A program made the translations under genes and the position numbers. A DNA stretch of 64,000 bases from Carboxydothermus hydrogenoformans Z-2901 (lineage in GTDB: Bacteria; Bacillota; Z-2901; Carboxydothermales; Carboxydothermaceae), in contig NC_007503.1 of NCBI RefSeq assembly GCF_000012865.1, positions 1,302,001 to 1,366,000 on the forward strand, read 5' to 3'. A model generated the notes under the pieces. It searched no databases. It saw only the letters and a program-made list of their open reading frames with translations, and was not told where the DNA came from. Positions 3,197 to 56,221 of this stretch are shown here, piece by piece (position 1 is the first letter of the stretch; each line of letters starts with the position of its first letter).

Positions 3197-3626
3197 GTTC
3201 TTCAAGACCTTTTGTTACTTCCTGTAAAGCGGCATTTAAATTAAAAGCCAGCTTTTCCAAAACCTCTACCGCATACTGCCGCGCCCCCTGCTTTAATTCA
3301 AGGGCGGTACTATTGGCTTTTGCAATAATCTCTCTTGCTCTTTCCTCGGCAATCTTAAGCATTTCCGATTCGCTTAACCACTTTTCCCCTTGCTGCTTTG
3401 CTCTTTCCAAAATCTCCTCCGCCTCTATTTTAGCTTTGGCTAAAAGATTTTCCCTGGATTCAAGAACTCCCTTAGCTTTACTTATTTCATCCGGCAAGAT
3501 ACTCCTAATTTTATCAATATACATCAGCAGTTGTTCCTCATCCATTAAAACTTTTCCTGTTAAGGGAATTTTAGGACTATCAATTATTTTATCTTCAAGC
3601 TCCTCTAATATTTTCAATATATCCAT
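3186..3626 (-). CDS. Coiled-coil protein resembling ATP synthase b subunit
   Basis: This 146-residue protein is predicted to be almost entirely alpha-helical and charged, with Ala/Glu/Lys-rich heptads from about residue 50 to the end. Similar proteins are found next to coaD in clostridia and are often annotated as ATPase-like or F0 b-like, but it lacks an N-terminal membrane anchor, so it is not a real b subunit. The function is unknown. A DivIVA-like or scaffold role is only a possibility. The ATG at 3624-3626 has GGAAGGG upstream and starts three bases after the coaD stop, so it is the last gene of rsmD-coaD-this gene. Its 3' end overlaps ylbJ by 11 bases on the opposite strand. Confidence 0.75.
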   Translation of the reverse strand: MDILKILEELEDKIIDSPKIPLTGKVLMDEEQLLMYIDKIRSILPDEISKAKGVLESRENLLAKAKIEAEEILERAKQQGEKWLSESEMLKIAEERAREIIAKANSTALELKQGARQYAVEVLEKLAFNLNAALQEVTKGLEELKK

Positions 3627-3629
3627 TCA

Positions 3630-4118
3630 TTAACACCCTTCCTTCTGAAATTTTTCCCTTAATTTTAATTCGACATATTCAGGTACCAATCCTTTTAAAC
3701 ATCCTCCATACATAGCTACTTCCTTTACAGCACTTGAACTTATGAACGAATATTCTGCTTTGGTCATTAAAAAAATAGTTTCAACCCACGGCACCAACTT
3801 TTTATTGGTTAAAGCCATCATAAATTCATTTTCAAAATCCGAAATAGCTCTAAGTCCCCGAATTATAACCTGAGCGTTTTTGGCTTTTAAATAATTAACC
3901 GTTAAGCCCTCAAAACTATCGATTTCAATATTAGGGTAATATTTCAACGTTTCCCGCAACATATCCAAGCGTTCTTCCAGGGTAAATAAAGGTTTTTTCA
4001 TTGGATTTTTGGCAATAGCAACAATTAAACGGTCAAAAAGCTCGGCCGCTCTTTCAATAATATCCAGATGACCGTTGGTTATAGGATCAAAACTACCCGG
4101 ATAAACTGCTATGCGCAA
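3630..4118 (-). CDS. coaD: Phosphopantetheine adenylyltransferase
   Basis: CoaD transfers AMP from ATP to 4'-phosphopantetheine, the penultimate step of coenzyme A synthesis. The 162-residue length is normal. It has the nucleotidyltransferase motif TNGH at residues 14-17 after PGSFDP, the RGLRAISDFE substrate-binding segment near residue 90, and the C-terminal ISSSAVKE motif. The start is TTG at 4116-4118 with GAGGGGGAG upstream. It begins one base after the rsmD stop, so the two are translationally close. The rsmD-coaD order is conserved in Firmicutes. The coaBC gene of the same pathway is near 26 kb. Confidence 0.95.
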   Translation of the reverse strand: MRIAVYPGSFDPITNGHLDIIERAAELFDRLIVAIAKNPMKKPLFTLEERLDMLRETLKYYPNIEIDSFEGLTVNYLKAKNAQVIIRGLRAISDFENEFMMALTNKKLVPWVETIFLMTKAEYSFISSSAVKEVAMYGGCLKGLVPEYVELKLREKFQKEGC

Positions 4119-4119
4119 A

Positions 4120-4674
4120 TTATTCTCCCCCTCGCTTTAATTGATAAAACCCCAGTAACGTATTCCCGTATACAGCTTCCCTTATCAACCCCAGCTTTTC
4201 AGAGCTTATATTTAAACCAATTTTTTTTGCCGTTTCAACCACGATAAGACCGGTTTCTTTTAGTAACCCTAATTGTAAAATAGTCAATACCGCCCTTTCT
4301 TCAAAACCATATCCGTAGGGCGGGTCCAAAAATATCAAATCAAACTTCTCATTAATGTGGGGTAAAATTTTAAAAATATCTCCTAAAATCGCTTTTGCCC
4401 GGTCCCCATAGCCTAAATTTTCAATATTTCGGCGCAAACAGCTAAAAGCTTCTCTATCGGCTTCAATAAAATAAGAAAACTTAGCCCCCCGACTTAATGC
4501 TTCCAAGCCAAGGTTTCCGGTTCCCGCAAAACCATCAAGGACAACCGCATCTATTACCCTATACCCTAAAATATTAAACATCGCTTCTTTAACCCGGTCC
4601 GAAGTTGGTCTGGTTTTTAAGCCTTTAGGTGCAATTAATTTTCTACCCCGGGCATCTCCTGTTATTATCCTCAT
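4120..4674 (-). CDS. rsmD: 16S rRNA (guanine966-N2)-methyltransferase
   Basis: RsmD methylates G966 of 16S rRNA in the 30S subunit using S-adenosylmethionine. The 184-residue protein has the AdoMet-binding loop DGFAGTGNLGLEA near residue 47 and the catalytic FLDPPYG motif (DPPY type, N2-guanine or N6-adenine methylation) near 115. The N-terminal RIITGDARGRKL stretch with TRPTSDRVKEA is typical of RsmD. It starts at ATG 4672-4674, with GGTGG as a modest ribosome site. It is followed by coaD one base later. The upstream intergenic region contains strong inverted repeats described separately. Confidence 0.94.
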   Translation of the reverse strand: MRIITGDARGRKLIAPKGLKTRPTSDRVKEAMFNILGYRVIDAVVLDGFAGTGNLGLEALSRGAKFSYFIEADREAFSCLRRNIENLGYGDRAKAILGDIFKILPHINEKFDLIFLDPPYGYGFEERAVLTILQLGLLKETGLIVVETAKKIGLNISSEKLGLIREAVYGNTLLGFYQLKRGGE

Positions 4675-4704
4675 TTTTTACCACCATCAATGTATAATTT
4701 TAAT

Positions 4705-4820
4705 GTTTGGCGGAAATACTACCTAATGCTCCGGAAGAGAGCAAATTCTATACACCCTCCCCCATTTGCTCTTCCTCCGGTTTCTCCTCTCTTTGCTGGC
4801 GTAATGCCAGCATTTTTTTT
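4705..4820 (+). ncRNA. Putative small RNA with C-rich loops
   Basis: The plus strand here has no plausible protein gene but has the architecture of a small regulatory RNA. A perfect TATAAT lies at 4693-4698, though without a convincing -35. A hairpin follows, with arms 4731-4746 and 4764-4780 (nine perfect base pairs, a small internal loop, then five more) and a loop containing CACCCTCCCCC. A single-stranded CT-rich segment at 4781-4793 comes next, and then a terminator hairpin at 4794-4820. C-rich unpaired segments are the usual seed for sRNAs that pair with Shine-Dalgarno sites, such as RsaE/RoxS of other Firmicutes; homology to those is not claimed. The alternative is an rsmD leader on the opposite strand. 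Confidence 0.4.
4794..4820 (+). terminator. Intrinsic terminator on plus strand
   Basis: TGCTGGC and GCCAGCA form a perfect 7-bp stem with loop GTAAT, directly followed by eight T residues on the plus strand. No T-run follows on the minus strand, so it does not serve the minus-strand gene whose stop codon it touches. No plus-strand protein gene lies upstream, which supports a separate short transcript. Confidence 0.65.
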
Positions 4821-5466
4821 AAAGATACTGCAAAATATCTTTTATCCTAATTTCATAATTTTCTTTTTTCCAAAAAATATTCTTAGGATAATAATTTACA
4901 TTTAGTTTTGGTTTTACAGCACGAGTCCAATAAGGAGTTAAACCATACTCCCTTAAATATAATAAATATTCCCGGACCAAAGCATCCTCTCCTAAATTAA
5001 CAACTGCCATGCGAATTGTTTCCGTTTCCTCGGTAGTTGGAATACAATAAAAACTGCGGCAAACAAAAGGCCGAAAGGCATAAATTTCACATTTTCTATC
5101 TTTTTCATTTAAAAACACACAAGCTCCATTTTCATTTCTTTTTAAAATTATATCAATTTCCCAACCTTTAATAAATATTTCAGTATAATCTCGTAGAAAA
5201 TGATAAAGGTCAATATTTTGTCCATTTTTTTCCCCTAATCCTCTTCGAAGCATAATAACATCAACATTAGTTAAAGGAATTCTTTCATAACAACATTTTA
5301 TACAGTTAAGACAACTTTTTGTTCCTGCTTCCCGGTAATATTCCCCTGCTTCTACAAGGTTTTCCAACGCTTTAAGGTAGTCGGTAACGGTAGCATCGGG
5401 ATCTATTTTTAAAGCGTACCCTCTTAAATTGGCAATAATTTTTGCGATAATTTCCACTTTTTGCAA
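4819..5466 (-). CDS. YkgJ-family cysteine cluster protein
   Basis: The protein belongs to the YkgJ/zinc- or iron-chelating cysteine cluster family, whose molecular function is unclear. The 215 residues include two Cys groups that define the family: CLNCIKCC near residue 55, and Cys116-to-Cys140-region residues in which CVFL, KCEIY and VCRSFYC are spaced as expected for a metal site. The start is TTG at 5464-5466 with GGGAGG upstream; no ATG fits better. It is divergent from gpr and precedes rsmD by about 145 bases. No signal peptide or membrane segment is evident, so it is probably cytoplasmic. A role in modifying a methylated or sporulation protein cannot be inferred. Confidence 0.8.
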   Translation of the reverse strand: MQKVEIIAKIIANLRGYALKIDPDATVTDYLKALENLVEAGEYYREAGTKSCLNCIKCCYERIPLTNVDVIMLRRGLGEKNGQNIDLYHFLRDYTEIFIKGWEIDIILKRNENGACVFLNEKDRKCEIYAFRPFVCRSFYCIPTTEETETIRMAVVNLGEDALVREYLLYLREYGLTPYWTRAVKPKLNVNYYPKNIFWKKENYEIRIKDILQYL

Positions 5467-5529
5467 GAACCCTTTCCTCCCTTATAAAATTTCTTCCTTT
5501 GTCACACACTACTCGCTGAGGTGATAATT

Positions 5530-6513
5530 TTGGCAATAATGGAGCTTCTTAATACTTTAGGAGTAACAATTGACATGGCCGTTGAAGCCCACGAATTATT
5601 AAGAGGTGAAGCGGGGATTGAAATTCCCGGAGTTAAAGTGATTAAAGATAAAAAGGAAAATTATGAAATAACCAAAGTTGAAATTCTAAACGAGCAGGGT
5701 GCAGCTCACTTGCAAAAACCCATCGGGAATTATGTTACAATTGATGCCCCGGTGCTTCGAAGTCAAAACAGAACTGCCCAGAAAGAAATTATGTTGGCCT
5801 TGGCAAATATTCTAAAAACAATGCTAACAATAAATGATGAGCGACCCATATTAATAGTAGGGCTTGGAAACTGGCACGCCACTCCCGACGCGCTGGGCCC
5901 AAAAGTGGTAGACAATATTTTCGTTACGCGCCATTTGTTTAACTTAAAACATGAAGCCCTGAGCAAGGGTTTTAAAAATGTTGCAGCTATTTCCCCCGGA
6001 GTCTTAGGTATTACAGGAATTGAAACGGTAGAAATTGTTCAAGGCATTGTTGAAAAAATCAATCCTTCCTTTGTAATTGCCGTAGATGCTTTAGCTGCCG
6101 CCAATGTAGAAAGAATTTGTTCTTCTATTCAAATTGCAGATACAGGAATAAATCCAGGATCAGGGATAGGGAACCAACGTCCAGGATTAAATCGTGAAGT
6201 TTTGGGAATTCCGGTAATCGCCATTGGCTGCCCAACGGTGGTTAACGCAGCTATTATCGCCAAAAATACCCTGGAAATGTTTTTAGATAAATTCAGTTCA
6301 TCAAAACAATTTTACCAATTTTTAAAAGCCAGGCAAGCGGGAATAATTACCTTAGTCCGGGAAGTTTTAGAGCCATTTACTAATAATCTTACGGTAACAC
6401 CAAAAGAAATTGATTTTTTATTGTTAAATCTTGCTAAAGTAATAGCCGGGGGCATTACCATGGCAGTACACGAAAACGTCCAGCCGGAAAATGTGGAAAT
6501 CTACTTAAATTAA
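5530..6513 (+). CDS. gpr: Germination protease GPR
   Basis: GPR is the aspartic-type endoprotease (family A25) that degrades the small acid-soluble spore proteins during germination, releasing amino acids and uncovering DNA. The product is about 327 residues, near clostridial GPR length. It has the N-terminal IDMAVEAHE segment around the autoprocessing region, and VGLGNWHATPDALGPKVV, AISPGVLGITGIET and IAVDALAA motifs that are conserved throughout the family. I place the start at TTG 5530 because GAGGTGAT lies six bases upstream; GTG 5521 overlaps that site and ATG 5539 is farther. It faces the SASP genes immediately downstream on the other strand, its natural substrates. Confidence 0.93.
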   Translation: MAIMELLNTLGVTIDMAVEAHELLRGEAGIEIPGVKVIKDKKENYEITKVEILNEQGAAHLQKPIGNYVTIDAPVLRSQNRTAQKEIMLALANILKTMLTINDERPILIVGLGNWHATPDALGPKVVDNIFVTRHLFNLKHEALSKGFKNVAAISPGVLGITGIETVEIVQGIVEKINPSFVIAVDALAAANVERICSSIQIADTGINPGSGIGNQRPGLNREVLGIPVIAIGCPTVVNAAIIAKNTLEMFLDKFSSSKQFYQFLKARQAGIITLVREVLEPFTNNLTVTPKEIDFLLLNLAKVIAGGITMAVHENVQPENVEIYLN

Positions 6514-14805: not shown

Positions 14806-14830
14806 AAAAAGGTACAATAAGAGTATTAAT

Positions 14831-14947
14831 ACCTTCTCCCATCCAGACTTTAACTGTCGGCTCCGGAATTTCACCGGATCTATCCGTAAATTTTTACGGA
14901 CTCGCGGGCTTTACCGCCGGTTAGGAATTCCACCTGACCCCGAAGGT
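14831..14947 (-). promoter_or_regulatory. FMN riboswitch (RFN element)
   Basis: The minus strand has the canonical RFN aptamer: a 5' CTTCGGGG-x-CAGGTGGAATTCC block, CCGGCGGTAAAGCCCGCGAG, a variable hairpin (GTCCGTAAA/TTTACGGA), ATCCGGTGAAATTCCGGAGCCGAC, and a closing AGTCTGGATGGGAGAAGG. FMN binding closes P1 and allows the downstream terminator, lowering rib gene transcription. It lies between the promoter and ribD, as expected for a transcription-terminating switch. Confidence 0.95.
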
Positions 14948-14977
14948 AGTAAGATTAAGCAGTATTAAATTAATTTA

Positions 14978-43344: not shown

Positions 43345-43356
43345 ATTACCTCCTTA

Positions 43357-43386
43357 TAAAAAAACTCCCGGAGGCCTCCGGGAGTT
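43357..43386 (-). terminator. pyrR-pyrB intergenic attenuator terminator
   Basis: A perfect 24-base palindrome (AACTCCCGGAGG and its complement) gives a stem of about ten pairs and is followed by seven T residues on the minus strand, 12 bases before the pyrB ribosome site. It is the terminator half of a PyrR-controlled attenuator. Confidence 0.9.
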
Positions 43387-43400
43387 AACAAAACCCGTCA

Positions 43401-43437
43401 ACCCCTTTTAGGCCTCTCAGGACCTATTTAAAAGGGT
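43401..43437 (-). promoter_or_regulatory. PyrR binding loop (anti-antiterminator), pyrR-pyrB
   Basis: The RNA has ACCC-TTTTA flanks pairing around AGGTCCTGAGAGGCCT, close to the PyrR recognition sequence ARUCCNGNGAGGYU. With UMP, PyrR stabilises this hairpin and lets the downstream terminator form. Confidence 0.85.
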
Positions 43438-43443
43438 CGCCTT

Positions 43444-54087: not shown

Positions 54088-55545
54088 CTAATATATTTTA
54101 GTTATTTTAACACCAGTATAATAATACTTGATTATCTCCCTGTAGTCAAAGGGAGGATGGTTTTTGGTCTGCTGCGCCATTGCCCAGGCTCCCCACTGGG
54201 ACATACCAAGGCCGTGCCCCCAGCCCTGACCTATGAAAGTAAATTTTTGTGGTATTTCTTCAACAATATTATATCCAGCTCCGCCGTTTTCCATTGCAAC
54301 TTCATCACTACCAATCACATTTAAATTCTCTTTATCCACCTCTTTTGTCTCTCCATCCCCGGTTATCACATATATCTTGGGTTGTTCGGTAGCATTCAGC
54401 GGGACAAACTTGGTTTCGTATTTCTTTTCAGAAACTTTAACGGTAAAGCGCGAGCTATTTAAACCGAGAGCTTTTCTGATGGCTCCATCATATTTTAATA
54501 TTTTACTACCCTTTTCCCCTGTAACCGTTACTTCCATTGCCCGTCCGGTTGTTGCGGTTTTGGTTATTTTTACTTCTTTTACCTCTCCAACATCATATCC
54601 CGATTTTTTTAGCTGCTCCTGCAACTCAGAAGCCGTATATTCTTTTATCCATCGGATAACATTATAACTACTTGACCCGCGAGCTTTTAAAAGAAGAGCG
54701 GCTTCATCATCATAAATATCCTTTTTAGCTTTCAGGTACGGTAACTCCGTTGTACCGTAAATGGTACTATTGGATTCAATATATCCGCCGTTACTGGAAT
54801 GAAACAAAGCAGTAATAACCTTTCCATTATAAGTTATCACTTCTCCGGCAGTTTGGTCAACCAGAGCATTTACCGAGCTAAATTCGGAGCTCAAGCCTCC
54901 GTAAACCTGGCTTCTTTGATCCGGGTACAAATCAAATTCTTTATCAGGATTTAAATGGCTATAGGCATAGGTTCTGGCTGCTAAAATCTGGGCTTTTATT
55001 GCATTTACCGGCCAGGAAGCAGAAACTTCATTGGGAACCACACCATAAAGGTATTTTTCTAAGGAAAGGCGATTAACTAACCTTATACCGGTAGCTTTTG
55101 GTATTATTATTAAATCACCGCGGTAACGTTCCAAGCGTTGAGGTAAGGTACGTTCCGGTGTTAAGTTAAAATTTTCTGTAGTATCACTATAAGCCTGAAA
55201 AATAACAGGATTTTTAGTAACTAAAAATGGTATCGGGTCATTGTCTTTGTAAAGCTCAAGCCAATATTCCGAAAGATTTGCTGCTATCTCAATGGTTTTT
55301 AGTTTAATTGTAAAAATAGTTTCATTGGGATCTTTATAAATTAAATCTTCCACGTTTTTTAAGATACTTCCGTCATAAATTTGATATTTACCGCTTAGCT
55401 TTACCTTTTGGCTCTCGGTCTTGGGTAGATCTTTCAGCAAAATTCGAACCTTTACCTGCTCTCCAGCCAGAGTCGGCATCACCCTTAGGAGAAGAGCCGC
55501 TACGATTAGCAGCAGTATCATTAATTTTTTCAGTGGTTTTTTCAC
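54088..55545 (-). CDS. SpoIID/LytB domain protein
   Basis: SpoIID/LytB proteins are exported peptidoglycan-acting proteins; SpoIID is a lytic transglycosylase in engulfment. The 485-residue product starts with Lys residues and a hydrophobic signal segment (about 9-27). The SpoIID domain has LEKYLYGVVPNEVSASWPVNA and LKAQILAARTYAYSHL near residues 165-195, and the C-terminal GWGHGLGMSQWGAWAMA. The start GTG 55543-55545 is supported by GAGGAGG eight bases upstream. Its first 158 bases overlap the end of the rsgI-like gene in another frame. Confidence 0.9.
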   Translation of the reverse strand: MKKPLKKLMILLLIVAALLLRVMPTLAGEQVKVRILLKDLPKTESQKVKLSGKYQIYDGSILKNVEDLIYKDPNETIFTIKLKTIEIAANLSEYWLELYKDNDPIPFLVTKNPVIFQAYSDTTENFNLTPERTLPQRLERYRGDLIIIPKATGIRLVNRLSLEKYLYGVVPNEVSASWPVNAIKAQILAARTYAYSHLNPDKEFDLYPDQRSQVYGGLSSEFSSVNALVDQTAGEVITYNGKVITALFHSSNGGYIESNSTIYGTTELPYLKAKKDIYDDEAALLLKARGSSSYNVIRWIKEYTASELQEQLKKSGYDVGEVKEVKITKTATTGRAMEVTVTGEKGSKILKYDGAIRKALGLNSSRFTVKVSEKKYETKFVPLNATEQPKIYVITGDGETKEVDKENLNVIGSDEVAMENGGAGYNIVEEIPQKFTFIGQGWGHGLGMSQWGAWAMAQQTKNHPPFDYREIIKYYYTGVKITKIY

Positions 55546-56221
55546 TATTTTTGCCTCCTCCCCCGGTTAAAACCTTTTCCTGTTTTTTCCCTGATTCCTT
55601 TTTAATTTTATCATCTTTTGGATTTTCCCGAAAGTTTTTCCTGTTTTCCTTTGTTTTTATCTTCTCTTTCTTATTTACGTTTTCGACAGGTTTTTTATTT
55701 TTTCCAGAAATCGAAGGTTGAGGTTGGGGTTTGGGTTTTTGGTCTGGAAGATATTTTTGCAGTTTATGAACGTTAAATTTTTTTCCGGGTAATACCTCCA
55801 GCTTAATTTCTTCACTTGTTCCTAATTCCGAAGTAACTTTAGTAATTGCCTGTTCAACCTTTAATCCTTTTAATTCATCGCGGTATTTTTCAACCTCCGG
55901 AGAAAGAGGTAAAACTTTAATCACCTTATCCCGGTAATTTATGCCTATTTTTACTCCCCTGGTTCCACCGACGGTTAGATAGGCAACCACTTCCTTTTCC
56001 TTGGCATAGGTAAGGTAAACCGGGGCAAAAAATAACAATAAAGAAGCAACCAGGGCAACAATTTTAAGGCTAAAGCCCAAAGAATAAACTGTCCGTTCGG
56101 GAAATTCAACTTCATCCCCAACTTTATAACTTCCCGCTAATTTCACTTGCAAAAATCGGCCTTCAGACAAGATTAGATAAGAGTTTTCATTTACTTTTTC
56201 CACAATTACGCCCCGGCCCAT
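55388..56221 (-). CDS. RsgI-type anti-sigma-I factor
   Basis: RsgI proteins hold their cognate SigI at the membrane until an outside signal is sensed. The 277-residue protein has the cytoplasmic RsgI N-terminal domain (1-50) with GVIVEKVNENSYLILSEGRFLQV, then one membrane segment (about 53-72). The outside beta-rich RsgI conserved domain follows to about 165, with VGGTRGVKIGINYRDKVIKVLPL. The tail is rich in Lys, Asn, Ser and Glu and low-complexity. It lies directly after the sigI-like gene (two bases). Its last 158 bases overlap the SpoIID-like gene. Confidence 0.85.
   Translation of the reverse strand: MGRGVIVEKVNENSYLILSEGRFLQVKLAGSYKVGDEVEFPERTVYSLGFSLKIVALVASLLLFFAPVYLTYAKEKEVVAYLTVGGTRGVKIGINYRDKVIKVLPLSPEVEKYRDELKGLKVEQAITKVTSELGTSEEIKLEVLPGKKFNVHKLQKYLPDQKPKPQPQPSISGKNKKPVENVNKKEKIKTKENRKNFRENPKDDKIKKESGKKQEKVLTGGGGKNSEKTTEKINDTAANRSGSSPKGDADSGWRAGKGSNFAERSTQDREPKGKAKR

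Follow-up and report, generated by a model that had tools for sequence, protein, structure and literature searches.

A copy of the forespore small RNA CsfG beside rsmD in Carboxydothermus hydrogenoformans, catalogued as a leader on the opposite strand

The locus

The window, by which is meant the whole 64-kb stretch of Carboxydothermus hydrogenoformans DNA that was analysed, contains next to rsmD an element with the following features, listed by coordinates:

4120-4674, minus strand: rsmD (ylbH), the divergent neighbour of CsfG (PF03602, E 3.9e-50)
4692-4696, plus strand: sigma-F (sigma-F/G) -35 element GTATA, overlapping TATAAT
4712-4721, plus strand: sigma-F -10 element GGAAATACTA, at a spacing of 15 from the -35 element
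4726-4820, plus strand: putative CsfG transcript of about 93-95 nt, deduced from promoter position and terminator, with a start that is uncertain by a few bases
4729-4822, minus strand: RF00516 match, the reverse complement of CsfG (38.6 bits, gathering score 50)
4731-4780, plus strand: stem 1 of the predicted fold, with a 17-nt C-rich loop UCUAUACACCCUCCCCC
4771-4793, plus strand: family core CTTCCTCCGGTTTCTCCTCTCTT, agreeing with the consensus in 21 of 23 bases (two mismatches)
4781-4793, plus strand: CU-rich single-stranded linker UUUCUCCUCUCUU, unpaired in the ensemble, a potential anti-Shine-Dalgarno seed
4794-4820, plus strand: intrinsic terminator TGCTGGCGTAATGCCAGCA + TTTTTTTT, consisting of a hairpin (4794-4812) and eight T (4813-4820)

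The original prediction had described on the plus strand a TATAAT sequence (4693-4698), a hairpin with a C-rich loop, a CU-rich linker and a terminator, and all of these elements are found. It is also correct that no plus-strand protein gene feeds the terminator, as rsmD, coaD and the CxxCxxCC gene (PF03692) are all encoded on the minus strand. The terminator is the sole one detected within 3500-6200, and its end coincides with the stop codon of the convergent CxxCxxCC gene. The plus strand folds with -32.2 kcal/mol (z -3.5), and 1 of 200 shuffles was equally good. Stem 1 has C-rich regions in its loop (CCCTCCCCCA) and in its 3' arm (CTTCCTCCGG). In the predicted fold, the loop segment CACCCUCCCCC and the linker are unpaired C-rich regions, and a third such region, CTTCCTCC, is largely paired. 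The 23-nt consensus of the core is CTTCCTCCGGTTTCTCCTCTCCC with CTCCC at its end, and the C. hydrogenoformans copy ends with CTT instead of CCC. The linker at 4781-4793 is the most conserved part of the CsfG family.

A repeat or mobile element is ruled out by the single copy of the element in the genome. An open reading frame at 4690-4905 on the plus strand (71 aa) is not supported either, as it crosses the terminator and as the conservation tracks the RNA core.

Promoter and transcript

The consensus used for scanning for sigma-F promoters was GYWTA-N14-16-GGNRANAHTR, and the site GTATA-N15-GGAAATACTA (4692-4721) agrees with it in 13 of 13 positions. On both strands of the window there are four perfect sigma-F sites in total, and the -10 element is kept in both relatives of the same genus (GGAAATACTA in L003 and GGAAACACTA in L004). 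TATAAT had been taken for the -10 element, which is not borne out, as it overlaps the -35 element of this perfect site, and the seemingly missing -35 element is explained by TATAAT not being the -10 element. From the position of the sigma-F site, transcription probably starts near 4726-4728. The predicted small plus-strand RNA would have a length of about 93-95 nt and not, as had been assumed, of about 115 bases.

Sites for sigma-F/G recur upstream of the relatives' copies. Perfect sigma-G sites were found in 13 of 45 loci and perfect sigma-F sites in 4 of 45, in both cases against 0 of 654 control stretches taken from the same loci. In the named genomes, 18 of 77 loci have a sigma-F site with 13/13 matches (3 of 1014 controls), and 19 of 77 have a sigma-G site with 11/11 matches (1 of 1014 controls). 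A sigma-A promoter was considered as well and rejected, as there is no convincing plus-strand site near 4693 and as sigma-A sites are barely enriched upstream of the relatives' copies. Sites with 11/13 sigma-F matches are not rare among the control stretches. The sigma-F sites of the nearby gpr and SASP genes are less perfect, and the scan is therefore unable to call all sporulation promoters of the window. In the C. hydrogenoformans genome, sigma-F, sigma-G and Hfq all score above the curated cut-offs, and from the sequence it can be expected that CsfG is expressed in this organism.

Identity as CsfG

A permissive Rfam scan of 4600-4900 (E up to 1) gave as its sole match RF00516, the "ylbH leader", with 38.6 bits and an E-value of 6e-7; ylbH is rsmD. 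The match misses the RF00516 gathering cut-off of 50 bits, which is why a default Rfam scan of the window does not contain it. Elsewhere in the window, an FMN riboswitch (14827-14951, minus strand) and a PyrR binding site (43356-43439, minus strand) are above the Rfam cut-off. RF00516 and CsfG are the same DNA element, but the Rfam model describes the opposite strand and a cis-regulatory leader.

The sRNA at the locus is the local copy of CsfG, which means that it belongs to a family already described and is not a new sRNA type. The expectation of a C-rich plus-strand sRNA of the RsaE/RoxS kind is supported by this identity, as CsfG, RoxS and FsrA are classed together as sRNAs with C-rich regions (PMC8216469, PMC4409812). 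Three such regions are present in RoxS (PMC4409812), and three also in CsfG. What RoxS/RsaE and FsrA share with CsfG are unpaired C-rich regions that are thought to block Shine-Dalgarno sites, whereas they have no sequence family in common with it, the locus matching only RF00516 in Rfam, and are under other regulators, namely ResDE and Fur (PMC8216469, PMC4409812).

The closest known counterpart is CsfG (S547) of B. subtilis (Marchais et al. 2011 RNA Biol 8:358). Going by the papers that cite this description, the two RNAs resemble each other in the core sequence, in the placement next to rsmD/ylbH with opposite orientation, in the sigma-F/sigma-G promoter, in the C-rich regions, and in the endospore-forming host. 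By the same comparison, the C. hydrogenoformans copy differs in the arm and loop of stem 1, with its long CCCTCCCCC loop, in the end of the core (CTT, not CCC), in the strong U-tract terminator, and in lacking an upstream hairpin like that of Bacillus. It is very probably a further CsfG member in a lineage-specific form, and a described but unexplained sporulation sRNA is hereby placed in a Clostridia-type genome, with its full promoter and terminator. The sRNA gene at 4726-4820 on the plus strand is very probably real, and as an explanation of the whole locus it can be held with high confidence that it is the gene for the forespore sRNA CsfG, most likely a trans-acting repressor. The RF00516 score under the cut-off and the CTT at the end of the core speak against this reading.

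Distribution and link to sporulation

The count of the family on the CsfG strand rests on a pattern search with the 23-nt core, which with up to 3 mismatches was found in 145 of 299 genomes of the phylum (10 with the reversed-pattern control), and it occurs almost only in genomes that have sigma-G. The RF00516 family search, in which the B. subtilis positive control was recovered, gave matches in 137 of the 299 genomes; 7 were above the cut-off and 130 below it, so that the default cut-off of Rfam misses most family members. The co-occurrence with sigma-G is evident also from this search, as 135 of 252 genomes with sigma-G have a match and only 2 of 47 without (p 1.4e-11, kinship ignored), and 117 sigma-G genomes have none. 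As to the two matches without sigma-G, one is from a genome that is 61% complete (G283), and the other is weak (G250).

In one genome (G105), sigma-G and CsfG are both absent, and as relatives of the same family (G024, G067 and G218 of f23) have both, a natural loss of CsfG together with sporulation is possible. Three genomes (G050, G108 and G266) have two copies of the core. CsfG beside rsmD was also found on two MAG contigs labelled Acetobacteraceae and Desulfovibrio (L105, L106), which are probably misbinned contigs of spore-formers.

Conserved core and variable scaffold

The common denominator of the family is the CU-rich core. The long hairpin that had been described in the prediction is present in the locus, but far beyond the genus it is the core that is conserved and not this hairpin. 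The 5' arm of stem 1 is not the same in Bacilli, in Carboxydothermus and in one group of Clostridia, and elsewhere the stem is absent or unsupported (for example in L044, L046 and L068). Its covariation is weak in both subsets examined, and with 188 G.T to 205 A.C it is uninformative on the strand. On the 3' side of the core, each of the 45 loci examined has a hairpin at a roughly constant distance, with a sequence that is unrelated between loci, and in 94 of 121 loci the downstream hairpins exceed the 95th percentile of shuffles. In Carboxydothermus the hairpin is followed by a T run, which is absent in many other genera, and termination may therefore differ in these. In three loci (L092, L104 and L118), a CCTCCCC motif is shifted upstream by about 60 nt, and the structure that separates it from the core is another one, which amounts to the same RNA with its scaffold rearranged.

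Strand and relation to rsmD

On the opposite strand, rsmD adjoins CsfG in 41 of 45 loci and in 71 of 80 named loci, and this synteny is one reason to consider a minus-strand leader, that is a structured 5' UTR for the cis control of rsmD. Such a leader would agree with the Rfam classification and with a minus-strand fold that beats chance (z -5.2), and also at the C. hydrogenoformans locus the RF00516 match lies upstream of rsmD in the same direction. Nevertheless, in B. subtilis only the CsfG strand was visible on a Northern blot, and the ylbH leader went undetected on the rsmD strand (PMC3574147), nor was it found by dRNA-seq in B. amyloliquefaciens (PMC4634765). Moreover, the sigma-F/G promoters and the U-tract sit on the plus strand, the minus strand between the two genes is without a sigma-A-like promoter, and the downstream hairpins have 55 G.T versus 31 A.C (p 0.006, with related sequences counted as if independent), which favours the plus strand. 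In two Bacillus-type and apparently closely related loci, L023 and L052 (Bacillus sp. PAMC26568), the element is inverted relative to rsmD, and this is hard to reconcile with an rsmD leader, which altogether is extremely improbable. The "ylbH leader" RF00516 is an artefact of the strand on which the family was defined, and independent evidence has been added here that the family is catalogued as a leader on the wrong strand.

The vicinity of rsmD could also mean that the action of CsfG is mainly in cis, with the RNA being antisense to the 5' UTR of an rsmD mRNA that arises by read-through. The two genes are divergent and only about 50 nt apart, a minus-strand transcript that continues from the CxxCxxCC gene would be complementary to CsfG over its full length, and the gene arrangement is widely conserved. 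An antisense pairing, however, needs no sequence conservation, yet it is a short CU-rich core that is conserved, and this core is kept also in the copies that are inverted relative to rsmD; as in addition the neighbour of CsfG on its other side varies between genomes, a mainly cis-acting CsfG is quite improbable.

Proposed mode of action

It is suggested that sigma-F, and probably later sigma-G, transcribes CsfG during sporulation from GTATA-N15-GGAAATACTA, and that the transcript would end at the intrinsic terminator. CsfG would then most likely act in trans, its loop CACCCUCCCCC and its linker UUUCUCCUCUCUU binding to Shine-Dalgarno sequences of forespore mRNAs, and this pairing would block ribosome binding and cause a translational repression, as in RoxS/RsaE and FsrA. 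Hfq is possibly involved; CsfG of B. subtilis associates with this protein (PMC3574147). A function in the blocking of Shine-Dalgarno sites is what we infer as most likely from the C-rich regions and from the related sRNAs, but as pairing with Shine-Dalgarno sites is open to C-rich sequences of any kind, there is no specific support for this mode of action. The literature of 2021-2022 knows no CsfG target, B. subtilis included (PMC8216469).

A partner other than specific mRNAs has to be considered too. CsfG may bind to the ribosome or to a protein, for instance by mimicking the anti-Shine-Dalgarno sequence, and it would fit with this that Bacilli and Clostridia share a nearly invariant core of more than 20 nt within a scaffold that changes, that such a conservation exceeds that of a usual mRNA seed, and that the core resembles a repeated anti-Shine-Dalgarno sequence (CCUCC, CUCCUC). 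Conserved C-rich regions are typical of RoxS and FsrA too, however, and a protein or ribosome partner appears somewhat unlikely. A still broader view, to be judged as unlikely, makes CsfG a forespore RNA of ancient origin. Its core would have been fixed by one universal partner, which could be a protein, the ribosome or an mRNA site of very high conservation, and the hairpins, promoters and spacing around it would have turned over. If this were true, CsfG would silence translation in the forespore in general.

Search for targets

For the trans-acting repressor, which is the preferred reading, a prediction of targets by the C-rich segments had been proposed. This gave a surplus for the loop, but no specific target emerged. 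In the whole genome, the loop complement GGGGGAGG occurs 44 times before NTG versus 22 times for the reversed pattern, and this excess is consistent with a generic Shine-Dalgarno complementarity. The linker complement AGAGGAGAAA has 11 matches before NTG in the whole genome versus 4 for the reversed pattern, with no exact match at a convincing start codon genome-wide, and the matches that were read were rejected as targets, as they fall within coding sequence or open very short frames. For a hunt for CsfG targets, the compact copy of about 95 nt with its near-invariant core is a convenient object. One occurrence of GGGGGAGG, at 55543-55564 on the minus strand, is the ribosome site of a SpoIID-domain gene (54088-55545, minus strand) with an exact 8-nt loop complement, and this gene may be followed as a lead only.
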